From the NCBI GenBank assembly GCA_021843755.1, contig JAKBWB010000063.1, positions 1-64,000 on the forward strand: a stretch of 64,000 nt of DNA, given 5' to 3'. Position numbers and translations under genes: made by a program. Under the pieces are notes generated by a model, which saw nothing but the letters and a program-made list of their open reading frames with translations, was not told where the DNA came from and searched no databases. The first letter of the stretch is position 1, and the number at the start of each line of letters is the position of its first letter. This document shows, in pieces, positions 31,891 through 52,510 of the stretch. This DNA is from Pseudomonadota bacterium. Its GTDB lineage: Bacteria; Pseudomonadota; Gammaproteobacteria; Steroidobacterales; Steroidobacteraceae.

Positions 31891-32670
31891 CTAACCGCCC
31901 GATGCGCCGGAGGCATCCTGACGCGCGGTCTCGATCAACTCGGACAAGCCGAGCGCCCGCCGATGCGCGGCGCTCTGCTCCTGCACGTACTCGTTCAGAG
32001 CGTCGCGCGCACCGCTCCAGCCCCGCGTTCGCGGTGCGCGCAGACTCGCCAGCCCCATCCGCGTCAAAAGGCCCAAAGGCAGATGCCGCAGCAGACGTCT
32101 GGCCATCTCCACGAGCCAGTCCTGGCCGAGCGCCTGCCCGGTGCGGGCGAAGAACCGCCTGATGAGCCGCCCCTCCTCGATCCGGCCGCGCTGGATGACT
32201 TGTTCGGTGAACACTTCGTCGAAAACCATCGCGGGAGACTTGCGCGTATGGCCCTTGAGTTCCAGCCAGTGGCTGAGGGCCTTCATCACGCCCTCTGGGA
32301 ACACGTCGCGGGGGCAGACATAGGTGCATTTGTTGCACGACACGCACTGCCAGATGATCTCTTTGTCCCGCAGCAGCTCCGACTCGAGCCCCATGCGCAC
32401 CAGGTAGATCCAGAAGCGCGGATTGAAGTCCGGATTGATCGCATTGACGGTGCAGGCATTCGTGCACGAGCCGCACTGCCAACAGCGGTGAATGTGCTCT
32501 CCGCCGGGCAGCGAGGCGATCTGCTCCTGCAGTTCCTCGTTGTAGTCGGACACCACGCGCGAGTGGATGAACGTGCTCCAATGTCCGGATACGTCGACAC
32601 CGTCGACCACCAGCTGATCGTGTGTGCGCAGGTCTTCCGGGCGGATGAGCGATTGTTCGTGAATGGGCAT
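31891..32670 (-). CDS. shdrC2: sHdr complex ferredoxin-like subunit sHdrC2
   Basis: A 259-residue HdrC-type iron-sulfur protein. Two [4Fe-4S] ferredoxin motifs are seen: RCWQCGSCTNACTVNAINP and QCVSCNKCTYVCPRDVFPEG. The N- and C-terminal extensions are helical. It would shuttle electrons between sHdrB2 and sHdrA. It lies 11 bp before shdrB2 and 6 bp after the Hyp gene. It is distinct from sHdrC1 by the longer C terminus. Confidence 0.94.
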   Translation of the reverse strand: MPIHEQSLIRPEDLRTHDQLVVDGVDVSGHWSTFIHSRVVSDYNEELQEQIASLPGGEHIHRCWQCGSCTNACTVNAINPDFNPRFWIYLVRMGLESELLRDKEIIWQCVSCNKCTYVCPRDVFPEGVMKALSHWLELKGHTRKSPAMVFDEVFTEQVIQRGRIEEGRLIRRFFARTGQALGQDWLVEMARRLLRHLPLGLLTRMGLASLRAPRTRGWSGARDALNEYVQEQSAAHRRALGLSELIETARQDASGASGG

Positions 32671-32676
32671 GTGAGC

Positions 32677-33540
32677 TCACTCCGGCATTCGAGCCGGCTC
32701 GCCTGCCCGTACAGCGCCGGAACCGACTTCGCCGTCGCGCTGCGCGCGGTGAACGCCGCTGCCGAGGGCATCGAGGCCGAGCAGCCGCCGGGTATATTGC
32801 GAAGGATCCTCCTCGGCGCTGAAATCCACCCGCAAGTAGCTGCCGCCCTGGGCGCAGATGTATTCGGCGTAGATCTGGGCGCACAGAAGGTCGACGTACC
32901 GGATGACATCGCGGAACACGCCCTTGCTCGTGAGAAAGCCGCTGAGTTCCTCGCGCAGGATCAGAAACGCCGCGTAGCTGTCGGGTACATCGATACGCAC
33001 CCCGTCTTCACCGCCGAACCAGATCTCGCGCAACACTCCGGTGTTCGCCGCACCGTCCCAGACCCATCGGGTCATCATCGGAAAGCGCTCCGGCGCAAGC
33101 TGGTGCAGCAATTCCGCGCCGAGATCCCGTACCCACCGGGGGCGCTCTGCCGCGCAGAACCCGTCCCCGAACGCCACCAGCCGCTCATCGACACCGCTGT
33201 TGTCCCGCAGCGCGCCCAGCAGCCGGCTGATATCCGCCTTCAGTCCCTCGAAGGCCGGACGCTCCATCCAGGGGCCGATACGTCTGCGCACGGTCGGCAT
33301 GAAAGGCAACAGAATGCGCAGCGTCTCGGGCTCGAGTCCCGCGGCAGCCGCGCCATCCTTGCCGAGGACACTGCGGAACAAGTCGCTCTTGAGCTCGAGA
33401 GCGCGCACATACTGCTCGACTCCCCCGCCCGCCTCGCAGCTTGCGGCCAGCCGCGCCAGGCTGGCGGCGAGCCGCGGGCCACTCAACTCCAGCCGGACCG
33501 GCGGCGGCGCCGCGGAAGATTGTGTCAGGGATCGGGCCAC
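32677..33540 (-). CDS. sHdr-associated hypothetical protein (Hyp)
   Basis: A 287-residue protein encoded between shdrA and shdrC2, the position of the 'hyp' gene in sHdr clusters. No cofactor motif is seen; it is helical with FPMMTRWVWDGAANTGVLREIWFGG, YAAFLILREELSGFLTSKGVFRDVIRY and CAQIYAEYICAQGG. It starts with GTG at 33540. The role may be structural or in complex assembly. Position and sequence character fit the family; I could not test homology. Confidence 0.85.
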   Translation of the reverse strand: MARSLTQSSAAPPPVRLELSGPRLAASLARLAASCEAGGGVEQYVRALELKSDLFRSVLGKDGAAAAGLEPETLRILLPFMPTVRRRIGPWMERPAFEGLKADISRLLGALRDNSGVDERLVAFGDGFCAAERPRWVRDLGAELLHQLAPERFPMMTRWVWDGAANTGVLREIWFGGEDGVRIDVPDSYAAFLILREELSGFLTSKGVFRDVIRYVDLLCAQIYAEYICAQGGSYLRVDFSAEEDPSQYTRRLLGLDALGSGVHRAQRDGEVGSGAVRAGEPARMPE

Positions 33541-33549
33541 GCCGCGCCT

Positions 33550-34596
33550 TCAGGCGCTCGCCTGCGCCGGATGCACCAGCGGGAGCGCGCGTGCCGCCGC
33601 GGCGTACGCCTGCGCAATAGAATCGTCTATGGTCTCCGGTCCTGCAGCCGCGCCGGCCACGAACACACCGGGGCGCGACGTCTCCGCCGTATTGCCATAG
33701 GAATTTCCGCGCTCGAGGTACCCGTTCGGCTCGAGCGCCACGCCGAAGGCCGTCGCGATCGATTTGTTGTCCACGTTCGGATCCATGCCGATCGCATGCA
33801 CGACCATATCGAAGGGAATCGTGATCGGCCGCTTCACCAGCGTGTCTTCCCCCTTGACGATGAGCCTCTGCCCGTCCGAGGTGACCTCCGCGATGCGCGC
33901 CTTGATGTACTTGATCTTGAATTCCTCCTGGCTGCGCCAGTAGTACTTCGTCTCGTACAGGCCGAAGGTCCGGATGTCCATGTAGTAGATATAAACGTGG
34001 CAATCCGGCAGCTGTTCGCGGATCTCCATGGCGATGTTGGCCGAAACGGTGCAGCAGATCTTCGAGCACCAGGGACGCCCGATCTGCCGATCGCGAGATC
34101 CGACACACAGGAGGATCGCAACGCGCTGCGGCGCACGCCCGTCGGACGGACAGCGCACGCCCGTGCCCGCGGAGATCATCTGCTCCACCTGCGCCGTCGT
34201 CACGACGTCCGGATAGGTCCCGAAGCCCCACTCGGGCTTGTTGAGCGAGTCGAAATGGGTGAAGCCGGTGCACAGGATCACGGCCCCCACCTGCACCGCG
34301 GCGCCGTCGGAGAACTCCGCGTTGAAATCACCCGGACCGCCCTTCAAGGACGCGACGGTCGTGCGCAGCCGCACCGTCGCCAGAGGCTGCGCCTCCACCC
34401 GCCGGACCATGCCGCCGATTGCATCCTTGGCCCACTCCCCCGAGGGCACCAGCTTGGCGTAGCCGGAGAGGATCGGCGCCCCGCCGAGTCGCTCGGCTTT
34501 CTCGACCAGCACCACCCGCTGACCAACCGCCGTCAACGCGCTCGCCGCCGCCAGCCCCGCCGGCCCGCCGCCGACGATCAGCACCGGTCGGCTCAT
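33550..34596 (-). CDS. shdrA: sHdr complex flavoprotein subunit sHdrA
   Basis: A 348-residue flavoprotein shorter than methanogen HdrA. An FAD Rossmann motif is at the N terminus (VLIVGGGPAGLAAASALTAV). The unusual cysteine cluster binding one [4Fe-4S] is LLCVGSRD and PWCSKICCTVSANIAMEI. The second nucleotide region is VFVAGAAAGPETIDDSIAQA. sHdrA is thought to be the electron entry or exit point of the sHdr complex. It overlaps shdrB1 by 4 bp. Confidence 0.95.
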   Translation of the reverse strand: MSRPVLIVGGGPAGLAAASALTAVGQRVVLVEKAERLGGAPILSGYAKLVPSGEWAKDAIGGMVRRVEAQPLATVRLRTTVASLKGGPGDFNAEFSDGAAVQVGAVILCTGFTHFDSLNKPEWGFGTYPDVVTTAQVEQMISAGTGVRCPSDGRAPQRVAILLCVGSRDRQIGRPWCSKICCTVSANIAMEIREQLPDCHVYIYYMDIRTFGLYETKYYWRSQEEFKIKYIKARIAEVTSDGQRLIVKGEDTLVKRPITIPFDMVVHAIGMDPNVDNKSIATAFGVALEPNGYLERGNSYGNTAETSRPGVFVAGAAAGPETIDDSIAQAYAAAARALPLVHPAQASA

Positions 34597-35963
34597 CCGG
34601 CCTGGCCCGCCGCTTGCGCACGCGGCTTGAAGCCCGGACCGGAGGTTATCTTGCGGCTCGGGTCGTACAGCGTCTCGAGCCGCCCCGCGGCGACCTCCTT
34701 CAAGTATTCCTCGAACTCAGCCTTGCGCGCCTGCCAATCGATACCGAGCTTCTCCATGAGCGCTTCAGTCGGCGAGGCGTGCCAGTGCGACTGCACGATC
34801 TTGTACGGATGCGCCCCGCAGACCAGCGCCGCGAACTGGCAGTCCGCCAGCACCGGCAAGCTCACCGGGCGGCCGTCGGCCTTGCTGATCCACTGATTCT
34901 TGTCGAGCGTCGTGATACAGCCGGTGTCGTGACCGATCATCACGTCGGCGCGCGCCTCCTCGACCGCGACCCTGATCTTGCGGTCGATCGCGAAGGAACG
35001 GGTGAACTCCCGCTCGGAGATGATGTGGCGGAAGCCGAAGCCACAGCAGTCATACCAGGTCTTGTAGTCGACCACCTGCGCGCCGAGCGTCTGCATCAGG
35101 CCGGTCGAAACGGCAACCCGATTTCCGTCCAGCACTTTATCGTCATAGACGACGTCCTCCGGCACCATCTTGTACACGTGACAGGCCGGATGAATGGTCG
35201 CGCGGATCCGGCTGCAATCGATCGTCTGCAGATTCTTGATCTCATCGCGCATGACGTGCAGCCACTCGGAGTAGTGCACGATCTCCTCGGGGATCAGCAG
35301 CTTGCCGTCGACCAGCCGGCCGAGCTTGCCGAGAATCTGCCGCACCCGCTCGCGCAGTTTCGCCGACTGCAGCAGGTAGCCGCGCACTTCCTTGTAATTG
35401 CCGAACGAGGTGCCGCAGTGCACCAGCGGATAGTAATAGCCGTCCGGCAGTCCCTGCGCCTTGGCGGCGACGTACGCCTGATGGAAGTTACGCAGAAACA
35501 CCGCGGCGAGGCTCTCGATGTTGCCGATGCCCGAGCCGTGATAGTTCCACGCGGTGCACGAGGTCTGATCGGTCTCGTCGAGATATTCCGTGCCGAGCCG
35601 GTTCATCAACCACAGGAGCGATGCCGGATACCCTGGAATGTTGCCACATTGACCGCACGACTTGTGATGCCACAGTCGCACCGTCGGGATCTGCTTCTCC
35701 CAGCCGTACAATGTCCGCACCACGACCGGCTTGTGCGCCTCGGTCACCCGATGAACCACGATCTGCCCGTCTTTCTCCAGCTCCCACATCGCATCACGCA
35801 CGTCGGCGACCCGATCCTTGCCGGTCAGCATCGCGCGCCGGTCGATGATCTGCTCGACCCAGACGGTGGCGGTTCGCGCATCCTGGGCGTTGAGGCCGGA
35901 ACTGCGCCATTCCGGGCCGTGGCCGGTAAACCGCCCGCCCGCTGCTTGCTCATCTGACGTCAT
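34593..35963 (-). CDS. shdrB1: sHdr complex subunit sHdrB1
   Basis: A 456-residue CCG-type protein. One clear CCG motif is WYDCCGFGFRH, with further Cys in KSCGQCGNIPG, TSCTAWNYHG, VHCGTSFGNY, HPACHVYKM and GHDTGCITTLDKNQW, giving one noncubane [4Fe-4S] site plus additional cysteines. This fits sHdrB1, which keeps one CCG domain, against two in sHdrB2. ATG 35963 is preferred because GAGG lies eight bases upstream; a GTG at 35972 is also in frame. Confidence 0.93.
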   Translation of the reverse strand: MTSDEQAAGGRFTGHGPEWRSSGLNAQDARTATVWVEQIIDRRAMLTGKDRVADVRDAMWELEKDGQIVVHRVTEAHKPVVVRTLYGWEKQIPTVRLWHHKSCGQCGNIPGYPASLLWLMNRLGTEYLDETDQTSCTAWNYHGSGIGNIESLAAVFLRNFHQAYVAAKAQGLPDGYYYPLVHCGTSFGNYKEVRGYLLQSAKLRERVRQILGKLGRLVDGKLLIPEEIVHYSEWLHVMRDEIKNLQTIDCSRIRATIHPACHVYKMVPEDVVYDDKVLDGNRVAVSTGLMQTLGAQVVDYKTWYDCCGFGFRHIISEREFTRSFAIDRKIRVAVEEARADVMIGHDTGCITTLDKNQWISKADGRPVSLPVLADCQFAALVCGAHPYKIVQSHWHASPTEALMEKLGIDWQARKAEFEEYLKEVAAGRLETLYDPSRKITSGPGFKPRAQAAGQAG

Positions 35964-36026
35964 GGCTGACACCTCTATGGTCGTGAAGCGGCCGAAGGAC
36001 TCGCTTGGGGGCCCGAGGCCGGCCTC

Positions 36027-36773
36027 TCAGTCCCCATCCTGCGCTTCCTGCCAATCCGCGTATTCGTCACGCTTGTCGTCCATGATGTCCTGGATCACAT
36101 CGAACAGGTTCGGGTCGATCGCCTTCAGGCTGTTGGTCACCCCGGTCTCTTCCCAGATCGTGTACAGCTCCACCGACGTCTTGAGGTTGACCTCCCAGGC
36201 TGTCTTGGTGGTATGCAGGGTCGGCACCGGGATGGCTTTGCGCAGCGTGTCGAGCGGCGCGCTGACCTTCGACACGTTCGGTCCCCAGTCCGGGAAAGCG
36301 TCCCGGCTGATCATGTCGGGAGAAAGCTGGTTTCCGGTCGAGATGAGCTTGAGCATCACGCGGCTGAACGGCCGCAGTACGTTCTTGGCCGATTCCATGC
36401 CGTGCTTGATCGCCACTTCGCGCATCAACATCACCAGCCCGCCCGGGGAGTTGCCGAACGGGCAGCGCGCCGCACACGTGTAGCACTGCGCGCACGCCCA
36501 GATCTTCTCCTGCATGGCGTCGTAGATGCCTTCCAGGTTCTCGGTCCACAGCAGCTGCACGATCTCGCGCGGGCTGTAATCGTAGTAATGGGCCGAGGGG
36601 CAGGTCGCGGTGCAGATGCCGCAGTTGAGACAGCCGTTCAGCTGGTGATCGAATCTGAGATCGGACTGGATGTCCTGGAAGATCTCCTCGAGCTTGCTCC
36701 GCTCGAGCGGTGCGCGCGCGGACACCGGATCGCCGATGTGCTCCTGCACTCGCGTCGTATGTGCCTGGGTCAT
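36027..36773 (-). CDS. shdrC1: sHdr complex ferredoxin-like subunit sHdrC1
   Basis: A 248-residue protein with two [4Fe-4S] motifs, NGCLNCGICTATCPSAHYYD and CAQCYTCAARCPFGNSPGG. The YDYSPREIVQLLW stretch follows the first cluster as in HdrC proteins. It is the first core sHdr gene after the dsrE-like gene (gap 15 bp) and precedes shdrB1 by 63 bp, the largest gap in the core set. Confidence 0.94.
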   Translation of the reverse strand: MTQAHTTRVQEHIGDPVSARAPLERSKLEEIFQDIQSDLRFDHQLNGCLNCGICTATCPSAHYYDYSPREIVQLLWTENLEGIYDAMQEKIWACAQCYTCAARCPFGNSPGGLVMLMREVAIKHGMESAKNVLRPFSRVMLKLISTGNQLSPDMISRDAFPDWGPNVSKVSAPLDTLRKAIPVPTLHTTKTAWEVNLKTSVELYTIWEETGVTNSLKAIDPNLFDVIQDIMDDKRDEYADWQEAQDGD

Positions 36774-37539: not shown

Positions 37540-38259
37540 TCAGGGACGCGGCGGCGACATCAGGCCGAGCACGCGCACCAGGCCGGCCATGACAGCTGCG
37601 AGCGCAGTCTCGAGCTGCTCCTGAACGGCGCGCAACGCGGCCAGCGCTGCGGCCGTCTCGGGCGGCGCTTGCGGAAATTCCATGATCAGATCCTCGATGA
37701 TCGCCGACTTGATACCCGGGTGACCTGCGAATCCGAATGCGCGCTCGCCGAGCTGGAAAAGCGCCCACCGGCCCTGCTCGTCGCGGGCCAGCATCCGGGC
37801 AGTGGCCGGGAGCGAGACTGTGTCTCGACCGTAGCGCACCAGCGGATAGCTCGCCGGCAGCAGCCCCCCCAGTGCATCCTCCACCGTACGCGTAGCCGTT
37901 CCGACATCGAGCGTGAGCGTGCCCGCTACCGCGCTGCCGCCGCCGGCGAGCGCCAGGATCTGTGCGCCGAGTCCAAATCCGACCACCGGCTGCGACGCCG
38001 CGAGCGCCGCCGCGACGAGTTCGATCTCCGCCTCGAGCCAAGGCAGTTGCGCCGCCCCCGGGGCGGTGCCCCACGGCCCGCCACCGAGCAGCACCATTCC
38101 CGCGGACGTCTCCTCGATTCGCGGCAGTCGGCTGCCGGAGGTGAACGGACGGAAGTAGCGAAAGCCGATCCCGCGGATCTCCAGGTGATCCTCGATCAGC
38201 CCGAGATACTCCGCCGCGGTGTGCTGGATCACGGCCAGCTTGGTGGGCAGACTGCGCAC
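37540..38259 (-). CDS. Class I glutamine-amidotransferase-like protein without catalytic Cys
   Basis: A 239-residue protein with the GATase-1 fold pattern: LAVIQHTAAEYLGLIEDHL, MVLLGGGPWGTAPGAAQLPW, VVGFGLGAQILALAGG and FGFAGHPGIKSAII. The nucleophile elbow, normally GxCxGxQ, reads GFGLGAQ, with Gly96 in place of Cys; His180 remains in GHPG but the following Glu does not. Glutamine hydrolysis is therefore not expected. GTG start, 6 bp after the lipoate ligase gene, so it belongs to the lip operon. A regulatory or binding role is possible. Confidence 0.75.
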   Translation of the reverse strand: MRSLPTKLAVIQHTAAEYLGLIEDHLEIRGIGFRYFRPFTSGSRLPRIEETSAGMVLLGGGPWGTAPGAAQLPWLEAEIELVAAALAASQPVVGFGLGAQILALAGGGSAVAGTLTLDVGTATRTVEDALGGLLPASYPLVRYGRDTVSLPATARMLARDEQGRWALFQLGERAFGFAGHPGIKSAIIEDLIMEFPQAPPETAAALAALRAVQEQLETALAAVMAGLVRVLGLMSPPRP

Positions 38260-38265
38260 GAGCGG

Positions 38266-39345
38266 TCAGCCCGGCCGGCACGCCGTTGCCGCCAAGGCCG
38301 CCTCGATCGCGCGTCCGAAGTCCGCCGCGCCGACCGACAACGTGCCGGCGGAATGTTCCAGGAAGAACCGCTCGATCGCCTCGCCGGCGGCCTCGATCTC
38401 GATGCCCCGCAGGCGGCTCTCCAGATCCAGTACCAGCCGCGGCGGCGCGACGAAAAAATCCCCGGTGAGCAACACCTGACCGATACGGCGGCCGTCACGC
38501 CGCAAATACGCCGTGATCGTTCCCCCCGGGCTGGCGCACGTTCCGACCGAGACCGCGGCGCCGCGCGGTGGCCCGTCGATCTCGGCAACGAACTCCTCCC
38601 TCCCGATCTGCTGCGCGTGCAACTGGCGCCCCAGCTGCAGCACACCGGCGAGCGAGTCGGCCCCGGCCGGCTCGAACTGCACGCCAAGCCGCTCGTGAAA
38701 TCCCTCGAGCAGGGCCTGTTGAACCTGCTCGATGGTGGGGGTCCGCTCGCCCATCAGCTCGCGCAAACTCACCACCCGCTGCGCCGCCGAGTCGAGGCCG
38801 TGCCGGACGATCTTGGCCCGCGGCACACGCAGCGCGCCGAGCAGGCTCTCGGTGTCGAGCTCGACGAGCACCGTGCCCTGGTACAGCAGCGTGTTGCCGT
38901 CGAAGAACCCGCCGGTCCCGCCGACCTTGCGCCCCTCGACCTCGAGATCGTTGCGCGGCCGGAAGCGCACCTCGATACCGAGTCGGCTGAGCCCCACCGC
39001 CGCGGCCTCACAGACCGCCCGGGCCACCTCATCGAGCGATGGGTTGCCGAGCATGCCCCGGCCGAACACCAGCGCCCAGCCGAGTTGGCCCGGATCGAGA
39101 TAGATCGCCCCGCCGCCGGTGATACGCCGGCCGACTTCGATGCCGTGCTGCCGGCAATACTCGCGGTCGATCTCCGCGCTCAGGGACTGGTGGCGTCCGA
39201 GGAGCGCGCTCGGTTGGAAATGGATGAAGCGCAGTGAATCGGCCAGCCGACCCGTCTGATGCAGCTCGAGCATGGCCTGGTCGAGCGCGATGTTGAGCCG
39301 GCCGGCTTGCAGCCCGGCATCGAGCACCCGAAAGAGGCGGTTCAT
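38266..39345 (-). CDS. sHdr-type lipoate:protein ligase sLpl(AB)
   Basis: A 359-residue fused LplA-LplB ligase. The catalytic domain has RRITGGGAIYLDPGQLGWAL (substrate loop), NDLEVEGRKVGGTGGF with the catalytic Lys, and LLYQGTVLVELD. The C-terminal accessory domain is in the same polypeptide. sLpl(AB) enzymes are specific for LbpA and load octanoate or lipoate. The start overlaps the lipS2 stop (ATGA). In this pathway LipS1/LipS2 then insert sulfur. Confidence 0.9.
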   Translation of the reverse strand: MNRLFRVLDAGLQAGRLNIALDQAMLELHQTGRLADSLRFIHFQPSALLGRHQSLSAEIDREYCRQHGIEVGRRITGGGAIYLDPGQLGWALVFGRGMLGNPSLDEVARAVCEAAAVGLSRLGIEVRFRPRNDLEVEGRKVGGTGGFFDGNTLLYQGTVLVELDTESLLGALRVPRAKIVRHGLDSAAQRVVSLRELMGERTPTIEQVQQALLEGFHERLGVQFEPAGADSLAGVLQLGRQLHAQQIGREEFVAEIDGPPRGAAVSVGTCASPGGTITAYLRRDGRRIGQVLLTGDFFVAPPRLVLDLESRLRGIEIEAAGEAIERFFLEHSAGTLSVGAADFGRAIEAALAATACRPG

Positions 39346-40601
39346 CGCTCGTCCCGCACCACCGGGATGCGCAGCTGGCGGCGGATCCGGCGCAGGTCGG
39401 CGCGATTGGGCGCGAATGGGAAGCTCGCGATGTCGTGCGGCGGGGAGTCCCCGTAGGGCCGGTCGCACGCGGAAATATCGTCGCGAAACTTGCCGGGACA
39501 ACCCGAGGTGCGGAAGGCCACGCCGGCATCGATGATGCGCTCGAGCTCCTCGCGGGGCACCCCGAAGTCCGCGACCCGGCCGAGCGCATCGAAGCCCATC
39601 CGCTCGAGCCGGACCGATGCGTAATCGATCAGATAGCGGGCGAGTTGCACCCGCCGCCACTGATCCCGGGGCGTCGCCGGCAGGTGATCCATCAGCGAGC
39701 CCTGCTCCGGGAAGAAGCAGAACAGGTGGCTGTGGCCGCCGAGGTCCACCAGCTGCTGCACCAGCTCGAGCGCCTCACGCTCCGTCTCACCCATGCCGAT
39801 GATGATGTGCGCACCGAACTTCTGCGGCCCGAACACCTCGCGGGCCGCATGCAGGATTTCCCAGTACTTGCTCCACTTGTGCGGCGACTGCACGCCTTTG
39901 CCGCGGGTGCGCTCGAAGATCGCCGGAGTCGCCGCATCGAGCGCGACCGTGAATATGTCGGCGCCAAGCTCCCGCAGCCGCACCACGTCGGCGCGGCTCA
40001 TCGTGGTCGGGTTGGACAGTATCGACACCGGTATGACACCCGGATCGATACGCCGCGTCCATGCCCGCAGCACACTCACCGTGTCGGCATCGGACCGCGG
40101 GTGCGTGATCATCGAGATGCACATGCGGTGGAACGGACTTGCCGCGCCGTCTCTGGCCACGGTCTCGATCATCTGCTCGACGGGGACCGCCGGCCAGTCC
40201 ACCCGGATGAAGTTGCGGTCCGCATAGTCCCGCTCGGCCTCGCGGTGGCGCGCCAGTCCGCAGTACGCGCAGTTGGCACGACACCCCTCCGGATAGGTCA
40301 ACAACAGATTCAGGCAGCGCGTGCACTCGCAGCGATGCATGCGGCCCGGCATGAGCCCGAGGGTCATCGCTGCGGCGGTGGAGATCTGCACGTATTCCGG
40401 CGAGCGCATGTGCGGCGTCAGCACATTGTCGTTGGGCAGATAAACGCCGGTCGGCCGCAGATCGGCTGCTTTGACCGGCGCGCCGTTGCGCCGCTGCGGC
40501 GGCGTGTGCACCGGCGCGCGCGGCTCCATGGCCTCGAACGCGTTGAAATCTCCGGCTGACGCGCCGCCGGCGGGACGCTCGGGCAGCGTGCGGCAACTCA
40601 T
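39342..40601 (-). CDS. lipS2: Radical SAM lipoyl synthase component LipS2
   Basis: A 419-residue radical SAM enzyme. The cluster motif is EGCRANCAYCGLARH (CxxxCxxC); a Cys pair MHRCECTRCLN precedes it and may bind an auxiliary cluster. Further blocks are VSILSNPTTMSRADVVRLRE, GAHIIIGMGETEREAL and FRTSGCPGKF with a C-terminal Cys. With LipS1 it makes lipoate from octanoyl-LbpA in the sHdr-linked pathway. The ATGA overlap with lipS1 shows coupling. Assignment as S2 rather than S1 is from length, extra Cys and gene order. Confidence 0.87.
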   Translation of the reverse strand: MSCRTLPERPAGGASAGDFNAFEAMEPRAPVHTPPQRRNGAPVKAADLRPTGVYLPNDNVLTPHMRSPEYVQISTAAAMTLGLMPGRMHRCECTRCLNLLLTYPEGCRANCAYCGLARHREAERDYADRNFIRVDWPAVPVEQMIETVARDGAASPFHRMCISMITHPRSDADTVSVLRAWTRRIDPGVIPVSILSNPTTMSRADVVRLRELGADIFTVALDAATPAIFERTRGKGVQSPHKWSKYWEILHAAREVFGPQKFGAHIIIGMGETEREALELVQQLVDLGGHSHLFCFFPEQGSLMDHLPATPRDQWRRVQLARYLIDYASVRLERMGFDALGRVADFGVPREELERIIDAGVAFRTSGCPGKFRDDISACDRPYGDSPPHDIASFPFAPNRADLRRIRRQLRIPVVRDER

Positions 40602-41662
40602 GCGGAAACTCCCGCCGGTCCCCCGCCGGTCCCGCAACGAGCGCGGGCACCGGACAATCCGGCTCCTGCGAGCTTGATCGAGCAGCAGGCGTGCTGCTGC
40701 TCGAAGGGCCGGCCGATCGCCGTGGCAACCGCCGCCACCCCATCGGCCGGAAACGCGATGCCGTCGAGCCCGGCCAACACGGCATAGGTGTCGGTCACGC
40801 GCTTGTGCATGCCCGGCGGCCGGGCGCAGCCGAGCAGAACGCTGTGGTTCGGCAGGCGCGCGCGCGCCTCGGCAAACAGCCGGCCGACCTCGCCGGTACC
40901 GGGCACCGCGAACGTTCCCGGCGTGGCGTAGAAGGGCATGACGACCACCAGCACCAGAGCCTTCACGGGGTATCTGCTCACGATGTCCAGTGCCGCCGAC
41001 TCGCCCAGCACCTTGCCGAAATGCAACCCGATGACGATATGCGGCGTGACCTCCATGGACGTGGCGCACAACGCCTCGAGCGTCGCCTCGAAATCCGCCA
41101 CGGGCCGCTCCAGGTGGTATACCTCACGGATCGTCGCCTCCGCGCCGATCACATCCATCATCGCCGTGTCGATGCCGGCCGCCTCCATGGCGCGGGCGCC
41201 GGCGCGGTCGGTGAGCGCCGTATGGATTGCGATGCGCAAATCCGGGTGGTCGCGCTTCAACCGCTCGATCACCGGATAGAACCGACCGTAGGGAATCTCG
41301 TTGCGCCGGTTGGAGCCGCCGGAGAGCAGGAAGCCCTGCAGACCCTGGCGCGCAATCAGCGCGCGCACCGTGCGCTCGAGCATCTGCGGAGTCGTGGCCG
41401 GCAGCATCGGCTCGAGGATCTTCGCCCGGCAGTGCTCGCAGTTCAGGCCGCACGCCCCGCCGGTGATCGAAAATGCCGGAAAGCTGTTCTTCGAGCACCC
41501 GCGCAACTCGGTGCTCGCGTAGTCCTTGAACGTGGGGGTTGCGAAGCGCACCGGCCGCACGACCGTCCTCGCGCCCGCCCTCTCGAGCTGCGCCACGAGC
41601 TCCGCGTCGAGCGGCGCCCCATCGAGCTCCTCGATGGCCAGAAGTTTCTCCAGCCAGCTCAT
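40598..41662 (-). CDS. lipS1: Radical SAM lipoyl synthase component LipS1
   Basis: A 354-residue radical SAM protein. The [4Fe-4S]/SAM motif is GGACGLNCEHCRAKIL (CxxxCxxC); an upstream Cys (ELRGCSKNSFPAFSITGG) and later Cys (LLGCARPPG, ACCSIK) may serve a second cluster. Other motifs are FLLSGGSNRRNEIPY and HIVIGLHFGKVLGES. It is expected to add the first sulfur to octanoyl-LbpA, with LipS2 adding the other. The ATG at 41662 overlaps the upstream deacylase stop. Confidence 0.87.
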   Translation of the reverse strand: MSWLEKLLAIEELDGAPLDAELVAQLERAGARTVVRPVRFATPTFKDYASTELRGCSKNSFPAFSITGGACGLNCEHCRAKILEPMLPATTPQMLERTVRALIARQGLQGFLLSGGSNRRNEIPYGRFYPVIERLKRDHPDLRIAIHTALTDRAGARAMEAAGIDTAMMDVIGAEATIREVYHLERPVADFEATLEALCATSMEVTPHIVIGLHFGKVLGESAALDIVSRYPVKALVLVVVMPFYATPGTFAVPGTGEVGRLFAEARARLPNHSVLLGCARPPGMHKRVTDTYAVLAGLDGIAFPADGVAAVATAIGRPFEQQHACCSIKLAGAGLSGARARCGTGGGPAGVSA

Positions 41663-42780
41663 ATGGCCCACTCCACACCGGCCCGGCGCACCACGTCCGC
41701 GACCGCCGGGCGGACCGGACCGTCGCGCGGCGGATCCGCCAGAGTCCGCTGCCACGACGGGTCGATCGCCTCATCGTCGATCAACTCGCACGACAGAGCG
41801 GCCAGAACGCGCTGAGCGCAGGCCGGCAACCGTTCCGGCAGCGGCCGGCCACTCAACTTCCCCCACAAGCCCGTCCACCCGCGGGCCACCGTCCAGGGAT
41901 TGTAACCGCCACCGCCGAGCACGACTGCGGCCGGCGCCGCATCGACCAGCTCCCGCACCGCCGTCCACAACGCCCCGTTGCTCAGAGCAAGCCCACACAA
42001 CGGATCGCCGTACAGCGCATCGGTACCGCAGGTGATCACCACCGCCTCCGGCCGCAGGCGCCGCGCGTACGGCAGCACGGTCGCGTCCATCACAAAGCGC
42101 AACTCCCCGTCATGAAACCCCTTGGGTACCGGGAGGTTGACCGAGCGGCCTCCGCCGCGGTCATCGACGCCGCCGGTGTACGGCCAGCGGCCGGCCTCGT
42201 GAATCGAAATGGTGTGCATGCGCTCATCGTCTCGCAGCGCATTCTGAACTCCGTCGCAGTGATGCGCATCGAGGTCTATGTACAGGATGCGCGACAAACC
42301 CAGCGCGGCGAGCCGGCGCAACGCGAACACTGGATCGTTGAAATAACAGAAGCCGCTCGCGCGGGCCGGCTGACCATGGTGCGTTCCACCGGCCGGATGA
42401 AACACCACATACCCCTCGAGCGCGAGCTCGGCGGCGAGCATCGAGCCCCCAACCGTCGCCGCGCCCTGGGCAAACAGCCCGCGAAACAGCGGATTTTCGC
42501 GCGTTCCGATGCCGAAGCGCTCGCGAACTTCGATGGTGGCGATCTGCGCCGCCTCCGCGGCGCGCAGCGCCGCGATGTACTCGGCGCTGTGGAACTGCCG
42601 GAGCTGCTGCTCGGAAGCACGCGGACAGTCGCGCAGCTCTGCGGCTGCGATCCACCCGAGCGCCCGGCACAGCGCGAGCACCGTGGCCACACGTGGAATG
42701 GCCAGCGGATGGCCCGAGCCGAAGCCCGCCGTGTTCGCGGAGATCCCGCCGATGAGCAGCGCCGAACGGCCCGATCGCAT
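41659..42780 (-). CDS. Histone-deacetylase-family hydrolase
   Basis: A 373-residue class I/AcuC-like zinc hydrolase. The active-site residues are all present: His134-His135 (GGTHHGQ), zinc ligands Asp171 and His173 (IDLDAHHCDG), Asp254 (CGTDALYGDPL), and the GGGGY loop. GFCYFND is the standard neighbouring motif. It is the first gene of the lip operon and overlaps lipS1 by 4 bp. Family members remove acetyl or longer acyl groups from Lys or polyamines. Its place with lipoate ligase and LipS genes suggests a substrate in acyl- or lipoyl-lysine chemistry. Confidence 0.9.
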   Translation of the reverse strand: MRSGRSALLIGGISANTAGFGSGHPLAIPRVATVLALCRALGWIAAAELRDCPRASEQQLRQFHSAEYIAALRAAEAAQIATIEVRERFGIGTRENPLFRGLFAQGAATVGGSMLAAELALEGYVVFHPAGGTHHGQPARASGFCYFNDPVFALRRLAALGLSRILYIDLDAHHCDGVQNALRDDERMHTISIHEAGRWPYTGGVDDRGGGRSVNLPVPKGFHDGELRFVMDATVLPYARRLRPEAVVITCGTDALYGDPLCGLALSNGALWTAVRELVDAAPAAVVLGGGGYNPWTVARGWTGLWGKLSGRPLPERLPACAQRVLAALSCELIDDEAIDPSWQRTLADPPRDGPVRPAVADVVRRAGVEWAI

Positions 42781-42863
42781 GTGCCGAACCCAACCCTCAC
42801 TGCAGCCGCGGCGCGGTCCGCGCCAACCGCCCCTGCGCGGTCCTCGCTTTTTACCTTATCAGT

Positions 42864-42906
42864 AATTGCTTATTTTAGCACCCTCTGATAGCTTGACGCT
42901 CATCAA
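42864..42906 (-). promoter_or_regulatory. lip operon promoter and shared palindrome
   Basis: In minus-strand sense: TTGATGAGCGTCAA (42906 to 42893), 15 bp, then TAAAAT (42877 to 42872), continuing AAGCAATT (42871 to 42864). The palindrome and the 15-bp gap to the -10-like box repeat those in front of the sHdr operon. It lies between the divergent deacylase (lip operon) and dsrE genes, so one regulator could act on both. The promoter for the plus-strand dsrE gene is not obvious. Confidence 0.45.
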
Positions 42907-42929
42907 TCCGGGTGGGGGGGCTAGTTCCC

Positions 42930-43442
42930 ATGGCCGTGCCAAGCGACGACATCCCGCGTTCCACCGCCAAGCGCATGTCGATCATCGTGACCAAGGGGAC
43001 GCTCGACTGGGCGTATCCACCCTTCATCCTGGCGACCACCGCCGCGGCAATGGACGTCCACGTCACGATGTTCTTCACCTTCTACGGACTGCCTCTGCTG
43101 CTGAGGGATCTCGACCTGAACCTGACGCCGCTGGGTAATCCCGCCATGAAGATGCCGTTCGCCGGCAAGCACATGGGAATGCCCAACATCGCGAGCATGA
43201 TCCCCGGGGTCGACGCGGCCGCCGGGCGCATGATGAAGAACCTGATGAAAAAGAAGGGCGTCGCCTCCATCGCCGATCTGCGCTCGATCGCCATCGAGGC
43301 GGGCGTGCGCATGATCGCCTGCCAGATGACCATGGACCTGTTCGAATACACGTTGAACGACATGATCGACGGACCCGAGCTCGGCGGGGCGGCGACCTAC
43401 ATCGAGGTTGCGACACAGTCGGATATCAACCTGTTCATCTGA
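42930..43442 (+). CDS. DsrE-family sulfurtransferase (DsrE2-like)
   Basis: A 170-residue DsrE/F-like protein. The block MSIIVTKGTLDWAYPPFILA is followed by FFTFYGLPLLLR and MIACQMTMDLFEYTLNDMID, with Cys131 as the likely persulfide residue. A Met/Lys-rich middle (KHMGMPNIASMIPG, RMMKNLMKKKG) is typical of the DsrE2 group. Start: ATG 42930, with a G7 tract (42914-42920) nine bases upstream; a GTG at 42912 is in frame but overlaps the G-tract. tusA follows 31 bp later. Confidence 0.87.
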   Translation: MAVPSDDIPRSTAKRMSIIVTKGTLDWAYPPFILATTAAAMDVHVTMFFTFYGLPLLLRDLDLNLTPLGNPAMKMPFAGKHMGMPNIASMIPGVDAAAGRMMKNLMKKKGVASIADLRSIAIEAGVRMIACQMTMDLFEYTLNDMIDGPELGGAATYIEVATQSDINLFI

Positions 43443-43473
43443 TGAAGTCGGAAAACTCTCTCTGGGACGCACC

Positions 43474-43701
43474 ATGGCTACTCAGACTCTCGATGCCAAA
43501 GGCCTCAACTGCCCTCTGCCTATTCTGCGGGCCAAGAAGGCCCTGCAAGGCATGCAACCGGGCGGCACGCTCGAGGTACTCGCGACCGATCCGGGCTCGG
43601 TGAAGGACTTCCAGGCTTTCTGCAACACCACGGGCACCGAACTCGTTGAATCGAGCAGCGACGGCAAGATCTATCGATTCGTACTGCGCCGCAAGAATTG
43701 A
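43474..43701 (+). CDS. tusA: Sulfur carrier TusA
   Basis: A 75-residue sulfur relay protein. The CPxP motif is LNCPLPIL with Cys13 as the persulfide site, and the two-layer alpha/beta TusA fold is seen in ILRAKKALQGMQPGGTLEVLATDPGSV. In sulfur oxidisers TusA passes sulfane sulfur between DsrE, rhodanese and sHdr. ATG 43474 is preceded by GGGACG and is chosen over an extension within the dsrE gene. Confidence 0.93.
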   Translation: MATQTLDAKGLNCPLPILRAKKALQGMQPGGTLEVLATDPGSVKDFQAFCNTTGTELVESSSDGKIYRFVLRRKN

Positions 43702-45868: not shown

Positions 45869-46258
45869 ATGGCGAACAAGCTCAGCCTCCTGTGCGTCTC
45901 CGGGACGCGCGAGAAGATACAGATGGCGGCCATGGTCGCCGCAACCGCCGCAGCCACCGGCGAGGTGGTGACGGTGTTTCTCTCGATGAACGCGCTCGGA
46001 TACTTCATCCGGGACGATGCGCGTACGCCACCGGCCGAGGGCGATATCGGGCGGCTCATGGCGCAGAAGAACGTGCCGCCTTTCCGGCACCTCTTCGAGC
46101 AGGCCAAGGAGCTCGGCGGGGCACGCCTGTACGCCTGCTCCATGGCCCTGGACGTGCTCGGCGTCGAGCCGGACCGCCTCGAGGCCTATATCGACGGCCC
46201 CATGGGCCTGACCGCGTTTCTGAGCGATGCGGCCGGCGGTCAACTCGTGACGTTTTGA
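45869..46258 (+). CDS. DsrE-family protein (second copy)
   Basis: A 129-residue DsrE/F-like protein with Cys9 ([12 protein letters not shown]) and Cys90 ([14 protein letters not shown]), the latter in the persulfide position. The acidic C-terminal half ([21 protein letters not shown]) is typical. GAGGAG lies before the ATG. The 255 bp upstream shows no gene. It is followed by a second TusA-like gene, so the order dsrE-tusA is repeated in this cluster. Confidence 0.87.
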
Positions 46259-46569: not shown

Positions 46570-47703
46570 ATGAAGATACTGATCATCGGCGGCGGAATGG
46601 GCGGCACCATTCTCGCGAACAACCTGGCGCGCCGGCTGCACACGGAACTGCAGGACGGCAAGGCACGAATCACGATGCTCTCGGCATCGGAACGGCATAT
46701 GTATCAGCCTGGGCTACTCTACGTCGCGCTCGGACGCATGATGCCCGATGAGCTGTACCGGGATCAGCGGCGCCTGCTTGAGCCGCAGATCGACTTCCAC
46801 GTCGATCCGGTCGAGGAATTCGCCCTGGACCAGCACCAGGTGCGCACCAAAAGCGGCAAGACCTACCCCTATGACGTGCTGGTGATCGCCACCGGCTCGC
46901 GTATCTTTCCGCAGGGGGTCCCCGGGCTGCAGGAGAACGCCGAATTCTTCTACACCGAGGAATCCGCCCTGCGCATGTGCAAGCGCCTGCGGGAATTCGA
47001 GGGCGGACGTGTGGTGATCGCGGTGGGCGTTCCGCACAAATGCCCGATGGCGCCCCTCGAGATCACCTTCATGCTGTATGACTACTTCAAGGATCGCGGC
47101 ATCCTCGACAAGACGCGGATTCACTACACCTATCCGATCGGGCGCACGCACAGTCTGGAGAATGTCGCCAAGTGGGCCACGCCGGAATTCGACCGGCTCG
47201 GAATCACCTACGAGACTCTGTTCAACATGAAGGAAATTGACGGGCGCGGCAAGGTGGTTCACAGCGAGGAAGGGACCGAGGCACCGTATGATCTGTTGAT
47301 CGCGATACCGGCGCACAAGGGAATGGAGGTGATCGAGAAGAACGGCCTGGGCAAGAGCGGCTGGATTCCGACCCACCGCCATCGTCTCAACATGGAGGGG
47401 CGGGACGATGTTTTCGTGCTCGGCGATACCACCAACCTACCGATCAGCAAGGCCGGCTCGACGGCGCATTTCGAAGCCGACGCGCTGGCGGAAAACCTCG
47501 CGGCCATGGTCAAGATCGGCTCGGCGGTGCGCGACTATGACGGTAAGGTGTTCTGCTTCATCGAGGCGGGCAAGGATCGCGCCACCTACGCGATGTTCAA
47601 CTATCAGAACCCGCCCAATCCGAAGCCTCCGACCAAGGCCGTACATTGGTTCAAGACGGCGTACAACAAGCTTTATTGGGCATCCGCCCGCGGGCTGCTC
47701 TGA
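46570..47703 (+). CDS. Sulfide:quinone oxidoreductase-like flavoprotein
   Basis: A 377-residue FAD protein. The Rossmann motif is LIIGGGMGGTILANNLARRL; VLVIATGSRIFP and VFVLGDTTNLPISKAG are the second and third nucleotide blocks. Cys158 (PHKCPMAP) and Cys329 (KVFCFIEAG) match the two SQR catalytic cysteines that bridge the sulfane sulfur; Cys137 may be the third. The C terminus (VHWFKTAYNKLYWASARGLL) is amphipathic, as in membrane-bound SQR. The product would be polysulfide or sulfane sulfur handed to DsrE/TusA. Confidence 0.85.
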   Translation: MKILIIGGGMGGTILANNLARRLHTELQDGKARITMLSASERHMYQPGLLYVALGRMMPDELYRDQRRLLEPQIDFHVDPVEEFALDQHQVRTKSGKTYPYDVLVIATGSRIFPQGVPGLQENAEFFYTEESALRMCKRLREFEGGRVVIAVGVPHKCPMAPLEITFMLYDYFKDRGILDKTRIHYTYPIGRTHSLENVAKWATPEFDRLGITYETLFNMKEIDGRGKVVHSEEGTEAPYDLLIAIPAHKGMEVIEKNGLGKSGWIPTHRHRLNMEGRDDVFVLGDTTNLPISKAGSTAHFEADALAENLAAMVKIGSAVRDYDGKVFCFIEAGKDRATYAMFNYQNPPNPKPPTKAVHWFKTAYNKLYWASARGLL

Positions 47704-49415: not shown

Positions 49416-50204
49416 GTGTTCACGCTCAATCCGTTTGCCGAACTTCCCGCCTCCATACCACCGGTCGCGATGCAGGCCTATGTGGCGGCCATGTTCGCGC
49501 TGGTCGTATGTGGCACGCTGATCGATCTGGCCCACAAGCGAAGCGCCCGGTACTTCTTCAATCACCGCCGGACCGTGCAGTCGGCCGCGACCCGCCGGAT
49601 CGGGGGCGCGGAAACAGCGGGGCTCGCGATCCAGACGCTCGTGATCACGGGCCTCGCCGCCGGTGAATTCTGCAATCCGTGGCGAAGGATCACCCATCTG
49701 CTGACGATGTACGGCTTCCTGCTCTATGTCATCACCACTGTCCTGATGGTCTTCGCGTATCCCGCCACCGGGGCGCCTGCCCCGCCGATCGTGCCCGAGC
49801 TCTGGTATCTCGGCGCCGCGTTGATTTGCCTGGGCGGCTACTGGTTCTGGCTCCTGCTGCGCGTCGACGTCGCCGCCGAAGGCCACTCGCCGCTGCGCCT
49901 GGTGCGCGCCGATCTGTTCATCCTCGCCCTGCTCTCGAGCGCGACGTTCGGGCTGATCTGGGCACGCCTGCAGACGGCGGGTGATTCAACCTCCGCCAGC
50001 GTATTTTTCGGTCTGTATCTGCTCGGCACCACGGTCCTGTTCGGCTCCGTTCCCTGGTCGAAGTTCGCCCACATGTTCTACAAACCGGCCGCGGCGTTTC
50101 AGCGGCGCATCGAGCACGCGAACGGTTATCGCCGCAACCTGCCCGCTCCGGCAGACCGGCCCGAGACCCTCGGCAGCGCCATCCGCCCGCCGCGCAACTT
50201 CTGA
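49416..50204 (+). CDS. aprM: APS reductase membrane anchor AprM
   Basis: A 262-residue protein with about six transmembrane helices (MQAYVAAMFALVVCGTLIDL, LLTMYGFLLYVITTVLMVFA, LWYLGAALICLGGYWFWLLL, LFILALLSSATFGLIWARL and FFGLYLLGTTVLFGSVPWS). The basic hinge AHKRSARYFFNHRR and the final KFAHMFYKPAAAF fit AprM, the quinone-linked membrane partner of AprBA in sulfur oxidisers. The GTG start has GGAGA upstream. aprB follows 12 bp later. Confidence 0.85.
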   Translation: MFTLNPFAELPASIPPVAMQAYVAAMFALVVCGTLIDLAHKRSARYFFNHRRTVQSAATRRIGGAETAGLAIQTLVITGLAAGEFCNPWRRITHLLTMYGFLLYVITTVLMVFAYPATGAPAPPIVPELWYLGAALICLGGYWFWLLLRVDVAAEGHSPLRLVRADLFILALLSSATFGLIWARLQTAGDSTSASVFFGLYLLGTTVLFGSVPWSKFAHMFYKPAAAFQRRIEHANGYRRNLPAPADRPETLGSAIRPPRNF

Positions 50205-50216
50205 GGAGCACCCCTC

Positions 50217-50681
50217 ATGCCCACGTTTGTCTACATGACGAGCTGCGACGGCTGCGGCTACTGCGTCGACATCTGCCCGTCCGACATCATGCACATCGAT
50301 CCCACGTACCGGCGCGCATACAACGCCGAGCCCAACATGTGCTGGGAATGCTACTCGTGCGTGAAGGCCTGCCCGCAGCAGGCCATCGACTGCCGGGGTT
50401 ACGCCGACTTCTCCCCCCTGGGCCACAGCGTGCGGGTGCTGCGCGAGCCGCAGAAGGGCACCGTTTCGTGGCGGATCAAGTTTCGCGACGGCCGGGAGAA
50501 GAACTTCGTCTCGCCCATCAGAACCACGCCCTGGGGGTCGATCAAAGGTCCGTCCGATTACACGCTGCCGGCCGCGGCGGCGCTGAAGTCGCAGGAACTC
50601 GCCCATGAGCCCGAGGCGCTCAAGGTCGCGGTCTTGCCCACGCTCGCACGCAGTCGCTTCAAGAAAGGGTTGGTGTCATGA
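50217..50681 (+). CDS. aprB: APS reductase beta subunit AprB
   Basis: A 154-residue iron-sulfur protein. Two [4Fe-4S] motifs are visible: SCDGCGYCVDICPSDIMHID and CWECYSCVKACPQQAID. The C-terminal tail after RGYADFSPLGHSVRVLREPQ wraps AprA in known structures. It carries electrons from AprA, in the oxidative direction, to AprM. The stop overlaps the aprA start (ATGA). Confidence 0.97.
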   Translation: MPTFVYMTSCDGCGYCVDICPSDIMHIDPTYRRAYNAEPNMCWECYSCVKACPQQAIDCRGYADFSPLGHSVRVLREPQKGTVSWRIKFRDGREKNFVSPIRTTPWGSIKGPSDYTLPAAAALKSQELAHEPEALKVAVLPTLARSRFKKGLVS

Positions 50682-52510
50682 GCCGCAAAACTGTATACGT
50701 CGACGCGGACATCCTCGTCATTGGCGGCGGCATGGCCGGGTGCGGCGCCACGTACGAATCCCGATATTGGGGCCGGGACCTGAAGATCGTCTGCGTCGAA
50801 AAGGCCAACATCGAGCGCAGCGGCGCGGTAGCCCAGGGCCTGTACGCAATCAACTGCTACATGGGCATGCACTGGAACGAGAACCAGCCCGAGGATCACG
50901 TGCGCTACGCGCGCAACGACCTCATGGGGCTGGTCAGGGAGGATCTCGGCTACGACATCGCGCGCCATGTCGATGCCACCGTGCACAAGTTCGAGGAGTG
51001 GGGTCTGCCGATCATGAAGGACCCCAAGACCGGCCGGTACCAGCGCGAAGGCAAATGGCAGATCATGATCCATGGCGAAAGCTACAAGCCGATCGTCGCC
51101 GAGGCCGCGCGCAAGGCCGCGAGCGAGGTCTACAACCGCGTCATGGTGACGCACCTGCTCATGGACAGCAAGCGGCCCAAGCGGGTCGCGGGCGCTGTCG
51201 GCTTCAACGTCCGCACGGGTGATTTCTACGTCTTCCGCGCCAAGGCGGTCATCGTCGCCGCCGGCGGCGCATCGCACATCTTCAAGCCGCGGGCCGCCGG
51301 CGAAGGCATGGGCAGGACATGGTACGCGCCCTGGAGCAGCGCCTCCGCCTATGCCCTGCCGATCCTGGCGGGTGCGAAGATGACCCAGATGGAAAACCGC
51401 ATCGTCTTGACACGGTTCAAGGACGGCTATGGCCCGGTCGGCGCCTACTTCCTGCATCTGAAGACCTATACACAGAACGCCTATGGGCAGGATTACGAGG
51501 CGTTCTGGCGCGACTCGATCGAGCAGATGGTCGGTGACTACGTCAATCACCATCCGGTACCGACCTGCCTGCGCAATCATGCGTTGCTCGAGGAGGTCAA
51601 GGCCGGCCGAGGTCCGATCCGCATGGTGACCACCGAGGCATTCAAGGATCCACACAAGGAGACCGTCGGCTGGGAAAACTTCCTCGGCATGACCGTCGGC
51701 CAGGCGGTCGTGTGGGCGTCCCAGAACATCGATCCCAAGGAGATCAATCCGGAGCTCACCACATCCGAGCCGTACGTCATGGGATCACATGCGACCTGCT
51801 CAGGCGCCTGGGCGAGCGGGCCGGAAGATTACGCGCCGGGGGACTACCAATGGGGCTACAACCGGATGATGACCGTCGAGGGACTGTTCGGTGCCGGCGA
51901 CACCATCGGCGGCACGGCCCACAAATTCTCCTCCGGGTCCTTCACGGAGGGCCGGATCGCCGCCAAGGCGGCAGTGCGCTATATCACGGACCTGGGCCAC
52001 GACGCGCCCAAGGTCAGCGAGGCGGAATACACCGAGCTGAAGAAGATCGTCTACGCGCCCCTGGAGAACTATCGCGTCGGCCGCAATGAGATCGTGGCCG
52101 GAACGGTCTCGCCGAGCTATCTGTTGCCGCTGCACGGACTGCAGCGCCTGGAGAAGATCATGGACGAGTACGTTGGGGGCATCAGCGCTCACTACACGAC
52201 CAATCAACCCCTGTTGACCCGCGGGCTCGAGCTGCTGGCCATGCTGAAGGAGGATCTGGCCCGCCTCGGGGCAGAAGACCTGCACCAGCTGCAGCGCGCC
52301 TGGGAACTGCAGCACCGGGTCCTCGCCTCCGAGTGCGTGACGCAGCACACTCTGTTCCGCCAGGAGACGCGCTGGCCCGGCTACTACTACCGCGCCGATC
52401 ATCCGCGACTGGATGACAAGGATTGGCATTGCTTCACCCTGTCGCGCTATGACCGGCAGTCCGGACAGTGGGAGATGGAGAAGGCGCCCGTGTACCACAT
52501 CATCGACTGA
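50678..52510 (+). CDS. aprA: APS reductase alpha subunit AprA
   Basis: A 610-residue FAD flavoprotein of the fumarate reductase fold. The nucleotide motif is ILVIGGGMAGCGATYESRYW; AQGLYAINCYMG, GESYKPIVAEAARKA and TVEGLFGAGDTIGGTAHKFSSG are family blocks. In sulfur oxidisers it condenses sulfite and AMP to APS (adenosine 5'-phosphosulfate), reducing the quinone pool via AprBM. The dissimilatory assignment rests on aprM and sat next to it and on the absence of qmo or dsrAB in this window. Confidence 0.96.
   Translation: MSRKTVYVDADILVIGGGMAGCGATYESRYWGRDLKIVCVEKANIERSGAVAQGLYAINCYMGMHWNENQPEDHVRYARNDLMGLVREDLGYDIARHVDATVHKFEEWGLPIMKDPKTGRYQREGKWQIMIHGESYKPIVAEAARKAASEVYNRVMVTHLLMDSKRPKRVAGAVGFNVRTGDFYVFRAKAVIVAAGGASHIFKPRAAGEGMGRTWYAPWSSASAYALPILAGAKMTQMENRIVLTRFKDGYGPVGAYFLHLKTYTQNAYGQDYEAFWRDSIEQMVGDYVNHHPVPTCLRNHALLEEVKAGRGPIRMVTTEAFKDPHKETVGWENFLGMTVGQAVVWASQNIDPKEINPELTTSEPYVMGSHATCSGAWASGPEDYAPGDYQWGYNRMMTVEGLFGAGDTIGGTAHKFSSGSFTEGRIAAKAAVRYITDLGHDAPKVSEAEYTELKKIVYAPLENYRVGRNEIVAGTVSPSYLLPLHGLQRLEKIMDEYVGGISAHYTTNQPLLTRGLELLAMLKEDLARLGAEDLHQLQRAWELQHRVLASECVTQHTLFRQETRWPGYYYRADHPRLDDKDWHCFTLSRYDRQSGQWEMEKAPVYHIID

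Follow-up and report, generated by a model that had tools for sequence, protein, structure and literature searches.

In the 64,000-nucleotide stretch of Steroidobacteraceae DNA that was analysed as a whole, and that is called the window here, a gene for an enzyme of the HDAC family heads an operon on the minus strand. From HDAC onward the order is lipS1-lipS2-sLpl(AB)-lipX-dsrE, then sHdrC1-B1-A-hyp-C2-B2, a small conserved gene, lbpA and a lipT-like gene, with dsrE2 and tusA on the divergent side. The features are:

43408-43701, plus strand: tusA, on the divergent side upstream of HDAC
42912-43442, plus strand: dsrE2, divergent from HDAC (NF047629, above cut-off)
42781-42911, no strand: divergent intergenic region between HDAC and dsrE2, 131 bp
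41659-42780, minus strand: HDLP-type classical Zn deacylase (HDAC family) at the head of the lip/sHdr operon, with AGGTHH at residues 130-135 and GGGY at 290-293
41659-41662, minus strand: ATGA overlap of 4 bp between the HDAC stop (TGA 41661-41659) and the lipS1 start (ATG at 41662)
40598-41662, minus strand: lipS1, radical SAM lipoyl synthase subunit (NF053742, 5e-57, below cut-off)
39342-40529, minus strand: lipS2 (NF053743, 8e-55, below cut-off), start approximate
38266-39270, minus strand: sLpl(AB) lipoate:protein ligase (PF21948, 1e-40, and a C-terminal LplB-like region)
37540-38259, minus strand: lipX-like putative glutamine amidotransferase (lipX as in PMC10332631)
36789-37217, minus strand: DsrE-family sulfurtransferase, from a domain search
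36027-36773, minus strand: sHdrC1
34593-35972, minus strand: sHdrB1, which served as the sHdr marker in the genome surveys
33550-34596, minus strand: sHdrA
32677-33540, minus strand: hyp, the conserved hypothetical protein of the sHdr cluster
31891-32670, minus strand: sHdrC2
30941-31870, minus strand: sHdrB2
30528-30944, minus strand: conserved 138-aa protein between sHdrB2 and LbpA, a weak relative of a 136-aa protein encoded ahead of CbbQ-CbbO-HDAC in clade C (see below)
30056-30499, minus strand: LbpA, a GcvH-like lipoate-binding protein and candidate substrate
28513-29620, minus strand: LipT-like FAD oxidoreductase of the geranylgeranyl-reductase type, start approximate

LipS1 and LipS2 are the top NCBIfam matches of the two genes that follow HDAC (193.5 and 186.4 bits, respectively), both scores lying below the curated cut-offs. 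The 4-bp coupling of HDAC to lipS1 described in the first-pass annotation is the ATGA listed above, and the identical overlap is present in the relative L048/L099. Elsewhere in the window, a flavoprotein akin to type III sulfide:quinone reductases is encoded at 46570-47703 (NF049943, 3e-92, below cut-off), adjoined by a further DsrE-like gene at 45869-46258, and positions 49416-52510 of the plus strand carry what by eye look like genes for an AprM-like membrane protein, AprB and AprA. The Apr-like genes suggest that sulfite from sHdr is oxidized via APS reductase.

The HDAC open reading frame occupies exactly positions 41659-42780 of the minus strand, starts with ATG and encodes 373 residues. 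Residues 24-307 match PF00850 (E value 1e-65; 222.5 bits against a cut-off of 27.9) over positions 1-296 of the 298 in the profile; the whole domain is covered, which by profile places the protein among the classical zinc deacylases. The zinc ligands Asp171, His173 and Asp254 and the His134-His135 dyad, noted as kept when the sequence was first read, are all present together with the catalytic Tyr293, and the six residues are invariant in an alignment of clades A, B and C (see below) and HDLP. In a Pfam search PF00850 was the sole domain, and a Sir2 NAD-binding domain was not found. The window enzyme is by sequence an intact zinc deacylase, its activity being predicted. An AlphaFold2 model (pLDDT 92.9) superimposes on HDLP (1c3r) with a Z score of 52.0 and a deviation of 1.7 Å over 365 residues at 38% identity, and on human HDAC2 with a Z score of 49, so that an arginase-deacetylase fold is predicted. 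HDLP ranked first for the model in both Foldseek and VIA, and in a phmmer search against solved proteins it scored 257 bits over its full length, the others reaching at most 167 bits (HDAC6 167, HDAC8 148). Among solved proteins, HDLP of Aquifex aeolicus (PDB 1C3P, 1C3R, 1C3S) is the nearest relative of the window HDAC, and both have the motifs HPLxIPR, ENP, GGxHH, DAHHxDGV and GGGGY. The structure of HDLP, determined in 1999, was the first of any HDAC and is the prototype of the HDAC fold; to our knowledge, the natural substrate of HDLP has not been established.

A contig scan for relatives of the window enzyme returned 80, in 15 of which HDAC and lipS1 lie within one stretch; the usual arrangement there is tusA/dsrE2 (divergent)-HDAC-lipS1-(lipT)-lipS2-sLpl-lipX-dsrE-hdrC. 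The hosts of these 15 are Gammaproteobacteria, Burkholderiales, Hyphomicrobiales, Rhodobacter SW2, Hyphomonadaceae, Woeseiaceae and others. At L109 and L111 HDAC adjoins dsrE2 and LipS1 is encoded elsewhere in the genome; lip genes are absent from the stretches of the remaining 63 relatives (about 44-54% identity). In the tree, the lip-operon enzymes, including that of the window, form a monophyletic clade A (support 99/96) that spans Gamma-, Beta- and Alphaproteobacteria. HDAC lies directly 5' of lipS1 on the same strand, at about -14 to +104 bp, in 18 of the 21 clade-A loci examined, with the window counted in and L048 and L099 taken as a single contig. The HDAC-lipS1 order is not the chance of a single genome, and the proposal that HDAC leads the lipoate-assembly operon is borne out well beyond the window, the gene being the conserved leading partner of lipS1/sLpl(AB) in three proteobacterial classes.

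Sister to clade A (99/99) is clade B (98/98), which consists of alphaproteobacterial enzymes without lip genes from Rhodobacterales, Azospirillum and Roseomonas. It was considered as a housekeeping HDAC with one set neighborhood, and a constant gene context was not found. Clade C (97/97) comprises gammaproteobacterial enzymes. A split of 100/100 sets clades A, B and C together with HDLP apart from a small outgroup, which the long branch of HDLP meets, so that the position of HDLP in the tree is provisional. By score HDLP is closest to clade C (300 bits, 43%), followed by clades B (266) and A (263) and by other bacterial HDACs (166). Many clade-C genomes contain the block lipS1-sLpl-lipT-lipS2-fadL-...-second ligase-like gene-...-CbbQ-CbbO-HDAC-aldo/keto reductase, and in roughly half of the clade-C genomes HDAC is situated within about 10-31 kb of the lip genes. 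In one such block, a second, divergent lipoate-ligase-like protein is encoded at L079:9870-10946 (PF21948, 7e-22), and the 136-aa relative of the 138-aa window protein at L079:11825-12235.

In 370 genomes of the window's class, each of which was searched for LipS1, HDAC and sHdrB1, the three were found in 30, 22 and 23 genomes, respectively; HDAC positives scored at least 239 bits, the next best match 139.5 bits. The HDLP-type enzyme occurs in 22 of the 23 sHdr-positive genomes versus none of the 347 sHdr-negative genomes (Fisher p 1.5e-34), and among the 30 LipS1-positive genomes in all 21 with sHdr versus none of the nine without it (p 7e-8); both p values assume independent genomes, and their significance is overstated. 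The 22 HDAC-positive genomes come from 14 families. Within one genus, G205 has sHdr and HDAC whereas G308 has lip genes but neither sHdr nor HDAC, and a contrast within one family, G335 and G238 versus G412, agrees with the sHdr rule. The first-pass annotation had said that rare co-occurrence with lip genes would count against its reading, and the co-occurrence is in fact very strong; beyond its claim, the association reaches sHdr as a whole. The simple reading that HDAC tracks lipS1 is incomplete, as nine LipS1-positive genomes lack HDAC and all nine lack sHdr. In eight of these nine LbpA, sLpl and LipS1 are found together and HDAC is missing; the LipS1 gene of the ninth is on a 3-kb contig. 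Because the LipS1-positive genomes split in this way, HDAC follows sHdr and lipoate assembly combined, not lipoate assembly by itself. A published survey likewise reports that LipS1/S2 are not confined to sHdr organisms (PMC10332631), in agreement with the counts here. The lip/sHdr link is seen twice, since clade C, a separate clade, is equally confined to sHdr- and lip-containing genomes in a different arrangement.

In G155, sHdr and lbpA are present, LipS1 and a close sLpl are absent, and HDAC was not found. Its locus L206 contains a complete sHdr cluster and lbpA, with lipS1, lipS2 and sLpl not beside them, and elsewhere the genome has only a generic LplA. The loci L187-L194, from LipS1-positive genomes without sHdr, are compact and comprise tusA, dsrE2 or dsrE, lbpA, lipS1, sLpl and lipT, as well as lipS2 where the contig reaches; one of these LipS1-positive, sHdr-negative genomes, G349, is a single contig. 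G238 was rejected as an HDAC-positive, LipS1-negative exception, since lipS2-lipT-sLpl lie beside HDAC and the contig stops short of lipS1.

A second sample of 386 alphaproteobacterial genomes included 11 with LipS1, seven of which have a clade-A HDAC near lipS1. In five of the seven, sHdr genes are present in the fetched stretch; the contig of G494 is cut, and in what was read of G431 sHdr genes were not seen. A clade-A HDAC is missing from the other four LipS1-positive genomes; no sHdr genes are visible in the stretches of three of them, and the fourth, G606, combines sHdr with lip genes, so that the rule linking HDAC to sHdr plus lip is strong but not absolute. In the window's own genus, the clade-A HDAC of G008, G029 and G030 is not part of a lip operon. 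G030, which is 97% complete, has kept the enzyme, and sHdr, LipS1 and sLpl were all not found in it. G008 and G029 were not accepted as genomes free of lip genes; their sHdr contigs end at or before the expected site of these genes, and their missing LipS1 is therefore probably an assembly gap. By eye, the clade-A HDAC of G030 and G008 (L042:8645-9763 and L043:6574-7692) is downstream of genes resembling those of group-4 hydrogenases or complex I.

Taken at the level of the module, HDAC is very probably a dedicated accessory of sHdr-LbpA in organisms in which sLpl(AB)-LipS1/S2 loads LbpA, where it would hydrolyze an acyl-lysine on some protein of the sHdr/lip module. Which protein this might be is a matter of more tentative choice. 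The first-pass annotation had proposed that octanoyl or lipoyl groups are removed from mis-loaded LbpA. The tight co-occurrence with lip genes speaks for this proposal, but the LbpA-containing genomes without sHdr and HDAC indicate that LbpA loading and proof-reading as such need no HDAC, and a role limited to correcting the lipoylation of LbpA is made less likely by the tracking of sHdr plus lip. In the version that we prefer, the acyl-lysine of LbpA would still be the substrate: the enzyme would clear LbpA of octanoyl groups, or of spent or over-oxidized lipoyl groups, that arise as LbpA works with sHdr, and the freed lysine would be reloaded by sLpl(AB) and LipS1/S2 from the same operon. 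A dependence on sHdr, through which cofactor would become worn, as well as on sLpl/LipS1/S2 for reloading would explain why HDAC is nearly confined to genomes with sHdr and lip. A module role with acyl-LbpA as substrate is, judged from the sequences, our leading candidate at a somewhat less than even chance. Against this reading stand G606, which lacks HDAC, G030, which lacks sHdr and LipS1, the non-lip clade B, and the LbpA-positive genomes that lack both sHdr and HDAC.

Removal of lipoyl groups from lysine has precedents in another enzyme class. Sirtuins are NAD-dependent enzymes with a Rossmann fold. Those named in the first-pass annotation, E. coli CobB and SIRT4, are indeed lipoamidases (PMC5596343), unlike the window HDAC in sequence and mechanism. 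Within the HDAC family, (R)-dihydrolipoic acid has been seen in complex with HDAC6, where the reduced lipoyl enters the active site and binds zinc (PMC10622836); that case differs in that a free acid acts as inhibitor of an animal class IIb enzyme and hydrolysis is not part of it. The foot-pocket motifs of the window enzyme, 130-AGGTHH-135 and 290-GGGY-293, are of the XGGxHH/GGGY type, and XGGLHH (AcuC) and GGGY substitutions occur in enzymes that take varied or long acyl chains (Graf et al., PMC11532494). B. subtilis AcuC removed octanoyl-lysine best among the peptides tested (PMC11532494). Nearly the entire pocket is shared by clade B (GGTHH, RWP, GGGGYNPW), and T133 is found in 100% of clade A and in 96% of the non-lip clade B, so that the open-pocket motifs are not diagnostic for a lipoamidase or deoctanoylase. 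A search for pocket residues specific to clade A yielded few clear differences from clade B (e.g. E95 and G258) and no pointer to the substrate; the conserved residues fail to separate the window enzyme from its non-lip sister clade. The enzyme may take octanoyl or lipoyl groups off LbpA, a reaction that the pocket residues do not single out.

Nearly as likely as the acyl-LbpA reading, on our analysis, is a deacetylation of sHdr or Lip proteins modeled on AcuC. A regulatory lysine deacetylase, a possibility to be taken seriously if short of probable, would take acetyl or other short acyl chains off catalytic lysines in sHdr subunits, sLpl(AB) or LipS1/S2, as AcuC does with AcsA, and the sulfur-oxidation enzymes would thereby stay active. 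B. subtilis AcuC (cluster 2c of Graf et al. 2024) resembles the window HDAC, by published motifs, in being class I-like with XGGxHH, GGGY and an open foot pocket, and it is a promiscuous deacylase with an adenylate-forming client (PMC11532494); sLpl(AB) too forms an acyl-adenylate (PMC6067878). The association with the whole sHdr and lip module, rather than with lipoate assembly alone, fits such regulation. AcuC differs in its known client AcsA and in its place in the acu operon rather than in a sulfur-oxidation setting. Moreover, no acetyltransferase gene was noticed beside HDAC in an untargeted look at the neighborhood, and regulation by itself leaves the tight coupling of clade A to lipS1 unexplained.

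The enzyme might alternatively be a salvage amidohydrolase that supplies sLpl(AB), which needs free acids, by releasing octanoate or lipoate from small amides or from peptides with an acyl-lysine. The pathway begins from free octanoate or lipoate (PMC10332631), and the gammaproteobacterial clusters contain, besides HDAC, a second ligase-like gene and one for an aldo/keto reductase, but lip-positive genomes without sHdr have the same ligase and do without HDAC, which makes salvage unlikely. Slightly less likely still is that a general HDAC of alphaproteobacterial type was carried along by accident with a laterally spreading sHdr-lip island. The general nature of the sister clade B, with no link to lip, would agree with such hitch-hiking, as would the persistence of a clade-A enzyme without sHdr in G030 and the absence of HDAC from G606; arguing against it are the separate repetition of the sHdr and lip restriction in clade C and the distribution of 22 of 23 versus 0 of 347. 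An acetylpolyamine amidohydrolase (ApaH) or other small-molecule deacetylase unrelated to its neighbors is very improbable, since such enzymes do occur within the HDAC family but sequence and fold place the window enzyme with HDLP and the class I HDACs (in a tree without cluster-4 enzymes), and bacterial polyamine deacetylases have been reported only from cluster 4 (PMC11532494).

The enzyme belongs to a known family, and its connection with sHdr and LipS1/S2 seems to be the new part as far as the literature could be searched. In that literature, outside of which most subscription papers lie, no paper linking any HDAC to sHdr or LipS1/S2 was found, in keeping with the first reading of the sequence, which knew of no described role for an HDAC in the sHdr lip pathway. 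The window shares lipS1, lipS2, sLpl(AB), lipX, a lipT-like gene and LbpA with the sLpl(AB)-LipS1/S2 assembly of Tanabe et al. (2023), who name the accessories lipT, lipX and lipY and do not mention a deacetylase (PMC10332631). The sHdr-lip pathway gains an accessory gene absent from the published surveys searched, and reversible lysine acylation would be tied to lithotrophic sulfur oxidation. The association also sets the closest bacterial relatives of HDLP in one pathway with LbpA, the sHdr subunits, sLpl and LipS1/S2 as candidates, and this small set makes the substrate question directly testable.

An sHdr setting for HDLP itself is suggested by its similarity to these enzymes, by the sHdr-type LbpA that A. 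aeolicus encodes (aq_402; PMC6067878) and by the possession of LipS1/S2 by Aquificota (PMC10332631). HDLP differs from the window enzyme in being nearer to clade C than to clade A, as the scores above indicate. If it belongs functionally with these relatives, the prototype HDAC structure would obtain a testable physiological setting. That HDLP-type deacylases in general, the Aquifex enzyme included, belong to the sHdr system and reset the LbpA lysine when it bears a lipoyl or octanoyl group is a broader claim and a rather doubtful one; were it true, these enzymes would act as zinc-dependent delipoylases on a natural protein substrate, and a physiological role could be given to bacterial HDLP. 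Pieces of a different HDAC family gene were seen at two contig ends in G000 (C30:232-741 and C31:17550-17915; L002 and L003) and are probably one gene split by assembly.
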